Below are positions 2,291 to 13,780 of a stretch of 64,000 nt of DNA, piece by piece (the first letter of the stretch is position 1; every line of letters begins with the position of its first letter). Location: positions 5,900,536 to 5,964,535 of the forward strand of contig NZ_CP083582.1 in assembly GCF_020091585.1 (NCBI RefSeq). The letters run 5' to 3'. The position numbers and the translations under genes were made by a program. Below the pieces are notes generated by a model that had not been told where the DNA came from, ran no database searches, and was given only the letters and a program-made list of their open reading frames with translations. This stretch comes from Kovacikia minuta CCNUW1 (GTDB lineage Bacteria > Cyanobacteriota > Cyanobacteriia > Leptolyngbyales > Leptolyngbyaceae).

Positions 2291-3604
2291 ATGGGACTTG
2301 AGTCAGACCAGATACCGCTTCAAGGGCATCGAACGCTTGCCGCGATCGTCTTCTCTGACGTGGTAAATTTTGGCGGCATTATGTCTGCTGATGAGGAACA
2401 TGCGCTAAAGCTGGTGCAGCGAGATGTGGAACTGATGACTCGCGTTTGTGAGCAACATGAGGGGCGAGTCCTCAAATTTACAGGTGATGGGTTACTCATG
2501 TATTTTCACAGTGCTGTACAGGCAGTTGCCTGTGCCCTGGAAACGCAGAAGGCGATCGCGGCGGCAGCAGCGGATTTGCCCTCTGAAGACATCCTCCAGC
2601 ATCGAATTGGAATTCATTTGGGGGATGTGTTTGTCAGTGATGATGATGTGATGGGCGATGGCGTTAACATTGCTGCCCGTTTGCAATCGGAAGCAGAACC
2701 TGGAGGAATTTGCCTGTCCCAGATTGTGTATGACGTGGTGAAGAAGCGCATTGCATTACAGGCAACCTATTTAGGACCGCGTGAACTCAAACATATTCAG
2801 GAAGCGGTTCCAATCTACCAAATTGTCCTGGCTGCCCATACCAAAACCACCTTGCCGGATGAGTCAGCCCGCCTGACAAGGGAAATGGAGCTAGAACCAG
2901 ACCTCATCGAGCCAACCACGATTTCCAGGGAATCATTTTCCAGCCCGCCCACCACCATTTCTGGACAACCATTTTCCAGCCCACCCACCACCATTTCTGG
3001 ACAACCATTTTCCAGCCCACCCACCACCATTTCCAGGGAACCGTTTTCCAGCCCACCCACCACCATTTCTGGGCAACCATTTTCCAGCCCAGTCAAGCCT
3101 GAACCGTTGAGGCTTGCAGAGGAAACCAGGAAAGAACTGGAGCGGATTCTGACCAGGAGGATTGGTCCGATCGCCGCAGTCATTCTGCAACAAACCTTAA
3201 ACCAGGTCGTTAATTATCAAGAACTGGTGAATCGCCTGGTTACTCACCTACCTGAAGCTGAGCAATTCCCCTTCCGGGAGAGTGCCCATCGTTTGTTGCA
3301 GCGTGAACTTGCGGATTCTCAAGACAGGTTCTGTCAGCATTCGGTTGGGGCTGAAATTCCCTACCAGACGACAACGGCACCCCAGCCCAACTCAGAATGG
3401 GGAGGGGTTGCTGCCATCGATCGGGAGTTTGTCAAACGCTGCGAACGGGAATTAGCGAAAGCCATTGGACCGATCGCCATTGTTATTGTTCAACGAACTC
3501 TTGCTCAACAGCCCAACCTTTCGCGTCCCCAATTGGTTGCCTCTCTCGCAAAACACCTGACTAATCCCCAAGCCATTCAAGCCTTCCATCACCAACTACT
3601 TTAA
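2291..3604 (+). CDS. Class III adenylate/guanylate cyclase with repeat linker and two IGPIA-type C-terminal modules
   Basis: Soluble class III nucleotide cyclase. The catalytic domain (about 14-180) keeps all expected residues: metal Asp23 (VFSDVVNFG), Lys62 and metal Asp66 (LKFTGDGLLMYF), then Asp123, Asn126 and Arg130 (GDGVNIAARL). The Lys/Asp pair favours ATP, so cAMP is the likely product (inference). Residues 209-268 are five 12-residue repeats of TTISGQPFSSPP type. They are followed by two copies of a roughly 55-residue module centred on RIGPIAAVIL (about 280-335) and AIGPIAIVIV (about 377-437). The same module ends the Ser/Thr kinase at 11453-13780. I do not know a proven function for it. 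The protein has no membrane segment. Confidence 0.9.
   Translation: MGLESDQIPLQGHRTLAAIVFSDVVNFGGIMSADEEHALKLVQRDVELMTRVCEQHEGRVLKFTGDGLLMYFHSAVQAVACALETQKAIAAAAADLPSEDILQHRIGIHLGDVFVSDDDVMGDGVNIAARLQSEAEPGGICLSQIVYDVVKKRIALQATYLGPRELKHIQEAVPIYQIVLAAHTKTTLPDESARLTREMELEPDLIEPTTISRESFSSPPTTISGQPFSSPPTTISGQPFSSPPTTISREPFSSPPTTISGQPFSSPVKPEPLRLAEETRKELERILTRRIGPIAAVILQQTLNQVVNYQELVNRLVTHLPEAEQFPFRESAHRLLQRELADSQDRFCQHSVGAEIPYQTTTAPQPNSEWGGVAAIDREFVKRCERELAKAIGPIAIVIVQRTLAQQPNLSRPQLVASLAKHLTNPQAIQAFHHQLL
2915..3094 (+). repeat. 36-bp tandem repeat, five units, in the cyclase gene
   Basis: Five head-to-tail 36-bp units encode 12 residues each (TTIS-GQ/RE-PFSSPP), giving a Ser/Pro/Thr-rich linker between the cyclase and the C-terminal modules. 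Units 2 and 3 are nearly identical at the DNA level, pointing to recent unit gain or gene conversion. Copy number could vary between strains. Confidence 0.95.
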
Positions 3605-3941: not shown

Positions 3942-4841
3942 TTACTCTCCCCGCCCTAGCATATTCATCGCCATCACAAGACTGGTTTTCATTCGGTTAA
4001 AAGCTTCTGCCAAATTGCCAATTTCATCCTTTGAAGTTTGTTCAAAATTGGCATCCATGTCGCCCATACTTACTTCATTTGCGACTTTTGCCATCCGATT
4101 CAAGGGACGAACAACCGTCTGTTTCAACAACCAGTTAATAACCAGCATTGCCAGGGCAAAAGCAGCGACAACAATGCCCATGAACAACAGCGTTGCCTTG
4201 CGCGCATTATCAATGATTCCACTAGCAGGAACCGAGATAACCTGGGCACCGACAATTTCATTCAACTTCCAGCCAAAGCCGTTGTTGCTGCCATAGGTAG
4301 CAAGCTGGCTTTTGGGAGCAGCTTCGGGTGTACTGTGACACCGTAAACAGGTTTCCTTTTTAATTGTGATTGGACGAGCAATATAAAACAAATCTCCCGC
4401 CGGAGAGCTGCGGTAGCCCGTCAGTTCCTTGAGGTTACTGTCGTTGCGGAATTGGTTAACCAGTCCTTCCTCAAAGGGGTCGGTTTTGTCTCGCAGATTA
4501 GTAGGATTTAATGTTGCTTCTTTGTAAAAGAAGTCTGTGTATTGGGGGTTTTTACGAATATCTTCCATCACTTGCCGCGCCGAATAGCCAGGAACCGTTT
4601 GGGGAAGAAATTCCTTCTCTGTCTCTAATCGGGGCGCTAATTGAGGATTCACCTCGGTTTGAGTATATTGACGCACCGAGAGCATTGTTTGTAGCAATAG
4701 ATTGGCTTTGGCAGTGACTTCTTTTTCTGCGTTGCGATTCAAAATTGCTGAGAATGCGATTCCGCTTAGAAGCACTGCACCCAAAAAGATTGAGAGTAGT
4801 AAAATATTGAACTTCCTGCTGAGTTTAAAGTTCTTGAGCAT
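3942..4841 (-). CDS. Haem-c (Tll0287/DUF3365-like) periplasmic sensor with HAMP, no output domain
   Basis: 299-residue membrane sensor. TM1 spans about 11-33, a periplasmic domain about 34-216, TM2 about 217-238 and a HAMP domain about 239-292 (VVRPLNRMAKVANEVSMGDM). The periplasmic domain contains CLRCH (Cys165-His169), a CxxCH site for covalent haem c, in the setting typical of the DUF3365/Tll0287-like family. It ends right after HAMP (NMLGRGE) with no kinase, GGDEF or methyl-accepting domain, so a partner must carry the output. It is divergent from a PhnD-like lipoprotein gene at 4947. Family members are thought to sense redox or ligands through the haem; the ligand here is unknown. Confidence 0.85.
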   Translation of the reverse strand: MLKNFKLSRKFNILLLSIFLGAVLLSGIAFSAILNRNAEKEVTAKANLLLQTMLSVRQYTQTEVNPQLAPRLETEKEFLPQTVPGYSARQVMEDIRKNPQYTDFFYKEATLNPTNLRDKTDPFEEGLVNQFRNDSNLKELTGYRSSPAGDLFYIARPITIKKETCLRCHSTPEAAPKSQLATYGSNNGFGWKLNEIVGAQVISVPASGIIDNARKATLLFMGIVVAAFALAMLVINWLLKQTVVRPLNRMAKVANEVSMGDMDANFEQTSKDEIGNLAEAFNRMKTSLVMAMNMLGRGE

Positions 4842-4946: not shown

Positions 4947-5828
4947 ATGATGATTTCGCGCCGTCTGCTGTTGACTCAGACTTTTTTGCTCGTTGCAGGT
5001 TGTGCTGCTTCTCAAACTAACCAGCCTCAATCCTTAGGAAAGTTAGTGATCGGAGCAGTTGCCTATGGTGAAGGGGCGCGTTCTGTAGATCAATACCAGC
5101 GCTTTATTTCTTATCTGGAAACCCGAATCAAAACTTTGATTGAACTGGAACCTGCCTACAATGAGGTAAAAGCAGCAGACCAGATTCAACGACAAGCCTG
5201 GTCGATCGTATTTGCACCACCTGGCTTAGCTGCGATCGCCGTCTCTAAGGCGAACTACCTTCCCATCTTCCCCCTGGAAGGAGTGGATAATCTCAGTTCA
5301 GTTCTGGTTGTACAAAAAAATAGCCCGATCCAGAAATTAAATGATGTGACAGGACAGGTTGTTGCCCTGGGACAGCCCGGCTCTGCTACAGGCTATTATG
5401 TGCCGCTCTACAACCTGTACGGCACCAGTCCGGCTGAAGTGCGCATTGCCCCCACGCCTAAAACAACTCTGGAGTGGCTGGCCAAGGGAGAAGTTGCCGT
5501 GGGTGCCCTGGCGAAGGATGAGTTTGAACGGTTTCGCGCTGAATTCAGTCCGGTAGAGTTTCGCATTCTTTATAACAGTCGCCGAATTCCCTCAGGTTCT
5601 GTGCTGATTAGCCCAGAGGTAGACCGCAACCAGCAACGGTTGATTCAGCAGGCAATGAATGAGGCAGTTCCTGCGGTCGCGCAGGAAGTGGGTTATATTC
5701 CCAACACACCTCCACCGGATTACAAAACACTTATTTCCTTCATAGAGAAAGTTAAACCGATCGAAGCCCGGATTGAGGAGAAACCTGCACCTCTATACAA
5801 GGCTGGAGAACAGAAAGTACCAACATGA
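4947..5828 (+). CDS. PhnD/SsuA-type phosphate/phosphonate-like substrate-binding lipoprotein
   Basis: Periplasmic binding protein with a lipoprotein signal: basic n-region (MMISRRLLL), hydrophobic core and lipobox LVAGC with Cys19 as the lipidation site. The mature part has the family-12 pattern: LVIGAVAYGEGARSVDQYQR, WSIVFAPPGLAAIAVSKANY, LNDVTGQVVALGQPGSATGY. The C-terminal EKPAPLYKAG is free. Such proteins bind phosphite, phosphonate or phosphate for ABC import, but no permease or ATPase is near, so a sensing role with the divergent haem-HAMP protein is possible (inference). ATG at 4947 or 4950 could be the start. Confidence 0.8.
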   Translation: MMISRRLLLTQTFLLVAGCAASQTNQPQSLGKLVIGAVAYGEGARSVDQYQRFISYLETRIKTLIELEPAYNEVKAADQIQRQAWSIVFAPPGLAAIAVSKANYLPIFPLEGVDNLSSVLVVQKNSPIQKLNDVTGQVVALGQPGSATGYYVPLYNLYGTSPAEVRIAPTPKTTLEWLAKGEVAVGALAKDEFERFRAEFSPVEFRILYNSRRIPSGSVLISPEVDRNQQRLIQQAMNEAVPAVAQEVGYIPNTPPPDYKTLISFIEKVKPIEARIEEKPAPLYKAGEQKVPT

Positions 5829-11452: not shown

Positions 11453-13780
11453 TCATATCAGCTTGGAAAGTTGTCGTTTGAAGGCATCTGCCTGCTGAAG
11501 GGTGGGAATCGTTGTACTCAATGTATCAATCAGTTGTTGGGCTGTAATTTGAGGTTGCCGTTTCACCATATCCTGAACCATAAAATTTGCGATCGGTCCA
11601 ATATGACGTGCCAATTCTTGTCTACACGTGTCCAGGAAAGCGGGAGTGAGTTGGGTCGATCCAGGACTAGAGGCGGCTGGGGAATTTGCGATCGTGCCCG
11701 CATTGTCTCGACTTTCGGATATCTGCCGCTTTGTGACTTGCCCACTTGCCCCAGATTCGGGTCGTCCACTTCCCCCCGATTCAGGTTGCCCACTTGCCCC
11801 TGAGGTTGTCTGCTCCCCAGGAATCCGCACACGGCTTCTAAACATCTGTGCTTGAGGAGAGCCAGGAATTTTTGCAGCCAGTGCCTCTACGAGTTGTTGG
11901 GGATTGCTTGGCGCTTGCTCAGCCAACACATTTTTGAGAATTAACCCTGCCATTGGTCCAATGAAGCCTGCCAGTTCTTGCCGACAGTGTTCCAGAAATG
12001 CTGAATCGAAGGGAATGGCAGGTTGTGGCTGACCGCTGGCAGCTGGCGCAATCACCGTTGGCGGTTCAGGGGAGTCCGTTTGGCGAGGAACCAGCATCGT
12101 TGGTTGAGGCTCAAAAGCCCCTTCTTCCCGCAAGCCACTGATTTCAAAGAAGTCATCCTGGAAGTCGTCTGCCTGCTCCTGAAAGGTGCTGAGGTCAAAG
12201 AAGTCATCGCGGAGATCGTCTGCCTGCTCCATTAACTCTTGAAAGAAGCCGCCTTCCATAATTTCGGCAACCTGGCGGCGGCGCTTTTCTTGATCAATTT
12301 GAATACTGATATCAACCAGCGGTTGCCGGTCTACCTCGCGGTCAGGGGCAATCTTTTGTAACTCAGCCAAAACTTCAGACGCCGACTGGTAGCGCTCCCT
12401 GGGCTTTTCTGCCAGCATCCGATTCAACAGTTGCAACAGGCGATCGCTAATGTTGACGTAGGAATGCCACTTCCACTCTAACGAGCCGTAATCCATCAGC
12501 AAACTCAGTTCGCACCCAGTCAGCAAAACAATCGCACTGACTGCCAGGGCATACAAATCGCTACAGGGAAAACACCGTCCCATCCGAATTTGCTCTGGTG
12601 GAGAATACCCAAACTTCCCTACTACTGAAGCCTGACTGGCATAACCCGAATTCGTATGGCTTGCCAGAATTTGGCTGACCGTCTGTTTCACCAAACCAAA
12701 GTCAATCAGCACAGGTTTGGCTTGCCCATCCGGCAGCATCACATTTTCCGGTGAGATATCCCGATGCAAAATATTCAGCGAGTGCAGGTAATCCAAAACA
12801 GGCAGCAAATCCTTCATCCACTGAATCACTTCCGCCTCAGAAAAGGCAGATTGTCCCTGATTGTGCCGCTCCTGAATCAGGGCTGCGTAGGTTTTGCCAT
12901 CAATGTACTCTTGCACCAGAAAAAGCCGTCCACGATCGCCCAACCAGGCAAGGAAGCGGGGAATTTGCGGGTGGTTAATCTGGTACAGAACCCTGGCTTC
13001 CCGCTCAAATAGCTCACGGGATTTTTGAACAACGTAGTCCGATCGACTCGACGGAACGAATTCTTTGAGAACACAGAAATCTCCAAAACAATGGGTATCG
13101 GAAGCCAGATAGGTTCTACCAAAGCCCCCATGCCCCAGCACCCTCTCCACGCGATAGCGGTTATTGACCAGGGTGCCCAGCGTCAGTTCATCCTCAGGCG
13201 CTTCTGATGCCGACAGCCCTCCCGATAGGTGAGATGCGGGAAAAATCTGGTAAGCCTGCACCGGTTCCTGAATGTTCCTGAACGATAGCGAGCCAACATG
13301 GGTTGCTTCCAGCGACAATCGTCCTTTGACCGCATCATAAACGGTTTGCGACAGACAAACACCCCTGGAAGTCGTTTCCTCCTGCAACCGAATTGCGATC
13401 TTCACCCCATTTCCTGTGATGTTTTCCTGGTCAAAAAACACCTCTCCGAAGTGGATACCAATCCGGTGCGCCAGAACGTCTACATCGGGCAAACTGGCAG
13501 CAACATAGGCAAGGGCTTTCTGAATTTCGATCGCACAAGCAACCGCCTGTAGCGCGTTGCCAAAGTACACCATCAAGCCATCCTCACCCATCAGCCTCAA
13601 CACCTGCCCCTCAAAGCGCTGGCAGATGTCTTGCATTAATTGCAGGTCTCGCCGAATCAAACTCAGGGTGTGTTCAGGATCATCAGCCATGCGGGCATTA
13701 CAGCCCACCCCATCCGTAACCATAATGACAGCCATAACCCGCTGCCCTTGGACCAGCGGCGACGATACTCCAGGTTCCAT
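11453..13780 (-). CDS. Ser/Thr protein kinase with decayed N-terminal cyclase domain and two C-terminal IGPIA modules
   Basis: 775 residues. Residues 10-180 align with the class III cyclase at 2291-3604, but key positions have changed: Lys62 is Arg, the GD motif is GED with an inserted residue (GEDGLMVYF), Asp is Asn124 and the transition-state Asn is Lys127. It is therefore probably catalytically dead. Residues 205-475 are a Hanks kinase with intact motifs: glycine loop GHGGFGRTYLA, Lys239 (VLKEF), HRDISPENV and DFG. Acidic repeats (QADDLRDDFFDL, QADDFQDDFFEI) occupy 519-547, and Gly/Ser repeats about 659-681. Two IGPIA modules (594-650, 714-775) end the protein. No membrane segment is seen, so it is probably soluble. 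Confidence 0.92.
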   Translation of the reverse strand: MEPGVSSPLVQGQRVMAVIMVTDGVGCNARMADDPEHTLSLIRRDLQLMQDICQRFEGQVLRLMGEDGLMVYFGNALQAVACAIEIQKALAYVAASLPDVDVLAHRIGIHFGEVFFDQENITGNGVKIAIRLQEETTSRGVCLSQTVYDAVKGRLSLEATHVGSLSFRNIQEPVQAYQIFPASHLSGGLSASEAPEDELTLGTLVNNRYRVERVLGHGGFGRTYLASDTHCFGDFCVLKEFVPSSRSDYVVQKSRELFEREARVLYQINHPQIPRFLAWLGDRGRLFLVQEYIDGKTYAALIQERHNQGQSAFSEAEVIQWMKDLLPVLDYLHSLNILHRDISPENVMLPDGQAKPVLIDFGLVKQTVSQILASHTNSGYASQASVVGKFGYSPPEQIRMGRCFPCSDLYALAVSAIVLLTGCELSLLMDYGSLEWKWHSYVNISDRLLQLLNRMLAEKPRERYQSASEVLAELQKIAPDREVDRQPLVDISIQIDQEKRRRQVAEIMEGGFFQELMEQADDLRDDFFDLSTFQEQADDFQDDFFEISGLREEGAFEPQPTMLVPRQTDSPEPPTVIAPAASGQPQPAIPFDSAFLEHCRQELAGFIGPMAGLILKNVLAEQAPSNPQQLVEALAAKIPGSPQAQMFRSRVRIPGEQTTSGASGQPESGGSGRPESGASGQVTKRQISESRDNAGTIANSPAASSPGSTQLTPAFLDTCRQELARHIGPIANFMVQDMVKRQPQITAQQLIDTLSTTIPTLQQADAFKRQLSKLI

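Follow-up and report, generated by a model that had tools for sequence, protein, structure and literature searches.

The gene P0001 of Kovacikia minuta CCNUW1 encodes a complete Ser/Thr protein kinase that is preceded by a class III cyclase domain lacking several of its catalytic residues and followed by a pair of small helical modules. The N-terminal domain is a pseudo-enzyme, in the sense that catalytic residues have been lost within a clade of three species and that the domain is under purifying selection, as seen between the two sister species of that clade (J069 and G057). Judged from its sequence and that of its relatives, P0001 is fairly probably a receptor-coupled, soluble kinase in which the pseudo-cyclase serves dimerisation and regulation.

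Domain architecture of P0001

P0001 occupies positions 11453 to 13780 of the window (the whole stretch of 64,000 nucleotides of DNA analysed here), the same coordinates as in a preliminary description of this DNA, and lies on the minus strand, which that description had left unstated. The gene, its parts and the intact cyclase with which it is compared are as follows.

11453..13780, minus strand: whole gene P0001, encoding 775 aa from an ATG start, with pseudo-cyclase, Ser/Thr kinase and a C-terminal pair of helical modules (34 further genomes have orthologues of the fusion)
13232..13753, minus strand: degenerate class III cyclase domain, residues 10-183 (49% identity to P0002; PDB 3mr7, E=1e-17; AF2 pLDDT about 83-96 over residues 11-180)
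12350..13180, minus strand: Ser/Thr protein kinase domain, residues 201-477, with every catalytic motif located (PF00069, 117.9 bits)
12188..12325, minus strand: post-kinase helical segment, residues 486-531 (found in the three degenerate fusions and some cyclase-less kinases; absent from intact fusions)
11825..12010, minus strand: first IGPxA (STAC-like) four-helix module, residues 591-652
11456..11650, minus strand: second IGPxA (STAC-like) four-helix module, residues 711-775 (AF2 pLDDT 94.7; best fold match AF1502, Z 6.2)
2291..3604, plus strand: P0002, an intact cyclase of class III with two IGPxA modules behind it (comparator for P0001 and possible partner)

The cyclase-like region (residues 10-189) is 49% identical over 180 residues to P0002, which lies 8 kb away, and the two proteins share the paired C-terminal modules as well as the cyclase domain, a similarity absent from the preliminary description. 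The linker of P0002 (window positions 2900-3110) is a run of near-identical repeats of the PPTTISGQPFSS type. Against the Pfam cyclase model P0001 scores 15.1 bits, below the cut-off of 21.9, and its neighbour P0002 scores 48.9. The kinase domain is of the Hanks type and complete, as had been claimed, with a G-loop (216-226), Lys239, Glu261, HRDISPEN (339-346) and DFG (360-362), and the two conserved blocks that were said to be kept in the cyclase domain are indeed found at residues 105-115 and 139-158. The AF2 model is confident for the cyclase domain, and its full-length pTM of 0.46 makes it uninformative on the arrangement of the domains.

Catalytic residues of the cyclase domain

The catalytic positions were compared with those of 61 intact relatives of the same subfamily (32 kinase fusions and 29 other cyclases, one relative being truncated before Asp23), in which the positions corresponding to Lys62, Gly65, Asp120, Asn127 and Arg131 are invariant (61/61), as are both metal-binding Asp residues. 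The residue roles are those of Rv1625c, in which Asp256 and Asp300 are the metal ligands, Lys296 and Asp365 the substrate residues, and Asn372 and Arg376 the transition-state residues (PMC4174876).

13712..13714, minus strand: metal-a Asp23, kept
13595..13597, minus strand: base-specifying Lys replaced by Arg62 (Lys in 61/61 intact relatives)
13580..13588, minus strand: Gly65-Glu66-Asp67, one additional residue at the GD hairpin, metal-b Asp67 kept (sister species ALAD and SLED)
13421..13423, minus strand: base-specifying Asp replaced by Asn120 (Asp in 61/61)
13400..13402, minus strand: transition-state Asn replaced by Lys127, Thr in both sister species (Asn in 61/61)
13388..13390, minus strand: transition-state Arg131, kept

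Measured against these roles, both metal Asp residues (23 and 67) are present in P0001, the base-specifying Lys/Asp pair is absent (Arg62 and Asn120) and the transition-state Asn/Arg pair is incomplete, with Lys127 accompanying the retained Arg131. Relative to a class III adenylyl/guanylyl cyclase domain (PF00211; nearest solved structure 3mr7), the fold, the length, the metal Asp pair and the Arg are thus alike, whereas the base-specifying pair and the transition-state Asn are replaced, the GD hairpin carries an extra residue and the score falls under the Pfam threshold. On this basis the domain is probably catalytically dead.

Much of the preliminary description survives the alignment with class III cyclases: the replacements of Lys62 by Arg and of Asn by Lys127 are borne out, together with the additional residue, the kinase motifs and the flanking blocks. 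Its claim of a catalytic change from Asp to Asn124 does not hold, because this position is non-catalytic and Asn is the family norm there (Asn in 54/61 intact relatives, Asp in 2/61); the true change, which had been overlooked, is Asn120, at the position of D365 in Rv1625c, seven residues before the catalytic Asn. The Glu described as inserted in the GD motif may in fact stand in the place of the lost Gly. The sister species have ALAD and SLED at this site and other relatives STGD, so that the change in P0001 is more plausibly a loss of the conserved Gly combined with one extra residue.

Inheritance of the changes and selection on the domain

A search of 388 genomes of the class (Cyanobacteriia) found the cyclase-kinase-module fusion in 34 cyanobacterial genomes besides that of the window, giving 35 fusions, of which 32 have intact cyclase residues. 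These residues are lost only in P0001 and in the proteins of the sister species J069 (L051/L135) and G057 (L052). All three proteins lack the catalytic Asn and the Gly before the metal-b Asp; J069 and G057 keep the Lys, the Asp, both metal Asp residues and the Arg, and have Thr for the Asn. The three are monophyletic in the cyclase tree (100/99) and in the kinase tree (100/98). As Thr takes the place of the Asn in J069 and G057, and Lys in P0001, loss of this residue was probably ancestral to the trio, and the changes at Lys62 and Asp120 and the extra residue probably came later, in the window lineage. The tree therefore holds a series from intact through half-decayed to fully decayed cyclase domains within one kinase fusion.

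On the branches of the trio the decayed cyclase domain has about twice the evolutionary rate of the kinase (stem and end branches of the window protein 0.37 + 0.45 for the cyclase versus 0.20 + 0.27 for the kinase), as is expected after release of constraint. Between J069 and G057, dN/dS is 0.062 for the decayed cyclase domain and 0.057 for the kinase. This ratio pertains to the sister pair, and constraint in the window lineage is gauged only indirectly, synonymous sites being saturated between the window protein and J069 (pS 0.81, pN 0.25). None of the three cyclase domains contains a stop or frameshift (0/3), and positions that are near-invariant for the fold are mostly kept. The single clade and the low dN/dS in the sister pair indicate that the change is inherited and the domain maintained. 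As a control for divergence, the intact protein L048 (49% mean identity to the others) retains every catalytic residue and 89% of the near-invariant positions, against 69-76% of the positions near-invariant in intact relatives for the trio at 50-51% mean identity; by this control and by the 61/61 invariance, the residue losses in P0001 appear to be more than chance would produce at its divergence.

Related kinases without any cyclase domain also exist, and an expanded kinase tree did not separate a single gain of the cyclase from several losses. No synteny was found between the window gene and those of the sister species, and a plasmid search returned only distant cyclases (<60% identity), from rhizobia and other non-cyanobacteria.

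The C-terminal STAC-like modules

The two C-terminal modules probably say more about the control of the kinase than does the cyclase domain. The predicted fold of the module (AF2, pLDDT 94.7) is a four-helix bundle of about 60 residues (helices 3-17, 20-31, 37-45 and 51-62), with an (L/I)GPx(x)A motif between helices 1 and 2 in which Gly18, Pro19 and Ala21 are invariant in 42 modules. No Pfam model matches it, including those of the effector-associated domains (EADs). Searches with the module profile against PDB sequences and with the model against PDB folds both placed AF1502 of Archaeoglobus first, the former at E 0.74 with its IGPIA aligned to IGPxA, and the latter at a Foldseek E of 0.87 and a VIA Z of 6.2 (rmsd 2.9 over 61 residues). 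The structure of AF1502 is that of a STAC domain, and in the STAC family an LGPx(x)A motif likewise lies between the first two helices (PMC4834066). As neither the sequence nor the fold score is conclusive for a helical bundle, the module is referred to here as STAC-like and not as STAC. Death-effector folds (the DEDs of FADD and caspase-8) were considered and set aside, with Z of 4-4.8, indistinct from unrelated helical bundles.

Four carriers of the module were found in this genome, namely P0001, P0002, a CHAT protease and another kinase. The CHAT-domain (caspase-like) protein (G000:C1:4768513-4768986, L216) ends in two IGPxA modules; the second kinase (G000:C1:3411321-3412806, L217) has paired modules and seems to be interrupted, either by an in-frame TAG or by a change of frame. 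In other cyanobacteria the module also stands at the end of caspase-domain proteins, and caspase-domain genes with the module lie within a few kb of module-bearing kinases at L140:1601-3715, L182:1599-3704, L154, L155, L166 and L188 (the Peptidase_C14 domain having been checked in L140 and L182).

STAC domains are four-helix bundles of about 60-90 residues that are coupled in the genome to a HAMP-only receptor or linked to SLC5. The module resembles STAC of AF1502 and CbrA in its four helices and in the position of its motif, and differs in being fused, in tandem, to kinases, a cyclase, caspases and a CHAT protease, with the modest E-value and Z score given above. It also recalls the EADs and bacterial Death-like domains (PMC8195603), which are likewise small, non-catalytic helical modules on varied effectors (kinase, caspase, cyclase), but in P0001 it is C-terminal and outside the Pfam EAD models.

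Receptor and gene neighbourhood

Two genes beside P0002 recur near kinases that bear the module.

3942..4841, minus strand: Tll0287-like receptor of the heme-Cache kind (CLRCH motif), which has HAMP and transmembrane helices and lacks an output domain (PF11845, 150 bits, plus HAMP; conserved neighbour of module-bearing kinases)
4947..5828, plus strand: phosphonate-type substrate-binding protein, second conserved neighbour (PF12974, 102 bits)

The gene neighbourhood of the module-bearing kinases is non-random. With or without a cyclase domain, these kinases are often flanked by a phosphonate-type binding protein on one side and a HAMP-only Tll0287-like receptor on the other. The receptor occurs in the fetched flanks of 18/54 module-kinase loci versus 0/26 module-less kinase loci (Fisher p = 4e-4), and after the relatives were collapsed to 31 clusters it is near 11/19 module kinases versus 1/12 module-less kinases (p = 0.008). 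Tll0287-like genes number 0-3 per genome checked, and all complete Tll0287-like receptors found carry CxxCH. A 2026 preprint reports nitric oxide sensor behaviour for those members of the family that are linked to HAMP (PMC12889525); the receptor adjoining P0002 is a candidate NO or redox receptor.

STAC (AF1502) is coupled to Af1503-type receptors, in which HAMP is the sole cytosolic part (PMC4834066), and a HAMP-only receptor is likewise found near the cyanobacterial module kinases and, in the window, beside P0002. By this analogy the modules are probably the link between the kinase and an upstream receptor. Against such coupling, the receptor and binding protein of the window adjoin P0002, with P0001 further along and not adjacent, and in neither sister species does the pair lie beside the kinase: the one Tll0287-like gene of G057 is away from it, and none was found in the incomplete genome of J069.

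A proposed mechanism and its alternatives

Class III cyclase domains act as head-to-tail dimers, and the decayed domain, having lost or nearly lost catalysis while keeping its fold, most likely still pairs for this reason, either with itself or with a partner cyclase. Such pairing would hold two kinase domains together, and the paired domain could relay its conformation or its nucleotide occupancy. Through the two STAC-like modules the kinase would probably be coupled to a receptor upstream, for instance a heme-Cache/HAMP protein that itself has no output. The original proposal, that a pseudo-cyclase is kept as a regulatory or dimerisation domain, is therefore supported only in part: the losses common to the three-species clade and the selection on the domain speak for retention, and pairing and regulation are predicted roles.

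A half-site partnership, in which P0001 and intact P0002 form a heterodimer with one working site and so tie the kinase to cAMP synthesis, appears rather unlikely. P0001 would supply the metal-binding Asp residues and P0002 the Lys, Asp, Asn and Arg; the former does keep both metal Asp residues and lack Lys, Asp and Asn, as does the C1 side of the mammalian split cyclase (PMC4174876), and the two proteins, alike in cyclase domain and paired modules, make up two of the four module carriers found in the genome. However, the transition-state Arg lost from C1 is kept in P0001, and a residue has been added beside its metal-b Asp. Moreover, G057 lacks a close standalone counterpart among cyclases of this type, the next best match there being at most 36% identical, and the single module-bearing protein of that genome is the fusion itself, so that a P0001-P0002 heterodimer is not a general explanation. 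It is unlikely, too, that the domain is a still active cyclase with a changed substrate or lower rate. Class III cyclases tolerate non-canonical residues, and weak or altered activity is conceivable because both metal Asp residues and the Arg remain; the transition-state Asn is not absolutely required, since Ma1120 is active with a natural Ala at this position and its activity is drastically reduced when Asn is introduced (PMC4215837), and the sister species have kept the Lys, the Asp, the metal ligands and the Arg. In P0001, by comparison with Ma1120, the base-specifying pair is changed too, the Asn has become a charged Lys and the metal-b hairpin has gained a residue, and the trio has lost near-invariant positions that the equally divergent L048 preserves along with all its catalytic residues.

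That the domain is a functionless relic in slow decay, harmless to the kinase, would agree with its faster evolution in the trio and with related kinases that manage without it, but we regard this as highly improbable given a dN/dS in the sister pair equal to that of the kinase domain, the absence of stops and frameshifts from the trio, and the largely preserved fold positions. Sequencing or assembly error is more improbable still, to the point of being negligible. Within the genus and order of the window a single genome has the gene, so that no close strain is available for comparison; yet the changes are scattered, in frame and partly common to two independently sequenced genomes, and for the shared changes (Asn127 and the Gly before the metal-b Asp) error is refuted. 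The preliminary description had allowed that intact relatives might expose the changes as errors. Intact relatives do exist (32/35 fusions), but the shared losses are inherited within one clade, in the kinase tree as in the cyclase tree, and for this reason are not errors.

Comparison with known systems

Inactive cyclase domains in bacterial signalling proteins are already known (PMC7159879), as are kinase-cyclase fusions (PKN2, PMC1262709). Kaur et al. (2020, PMC7159879) described vWA proteins with catalytically inactive cNMP cyclase domains, for which they proposed nucleotide binding or a dominant-negative role; these too are decayed cyclases within larger signalling proteins. In P0001 the fused partner is instead a Ser/Thr kinase that looks active, and the known intact orthologues of this fusion allow the loss to be placed on a tree. 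Myxococcus PKN2 (PMC1262709) and the TOMM kinase/cyclase fusion TIGR03903 join a kinase and a class III cyclase in one chain, as P0001 does, but in the reverse order, kinase first and cyclase second, and with no known C-terminal modules. P0001 is not a member of TIGR03903, matching it with its kinase part only (75.2 bits, cut-off 705.75). No report of the cyclase-kinase-module architecture, the decay series or a STAC-like tail on these effectors was found in the literature outside subscription journals.

The decay series offers a clean system in which to study the role of a nucleotide cyclase domain after messenger production ends, and the tail module and neighbouring receptor suggest how HAMP-only receptors without an output domain signal. 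A broader reading, which we consider distinctly unlikely, would make the cyanobacterial STAC-like tail a plug that joins exchangeable effectors (kinase, cyclase, kinase-cyclase, caspase) to output-less heme-Cache/HAMP receptors, with P0001 and P0002 forming a one-site heterodimer here, through which one receptor would control phosphorylation and cAMP. Elsewhere in the genome, a dCache-HAMP-PAS sensor ORF (G000:C1:4934500-4939500, L215) terminates, at a stop codon, in a segment with 43% identity to the post-kinase helix of P0001, which suggests that this helix may be a coupling element common to the two proteins.
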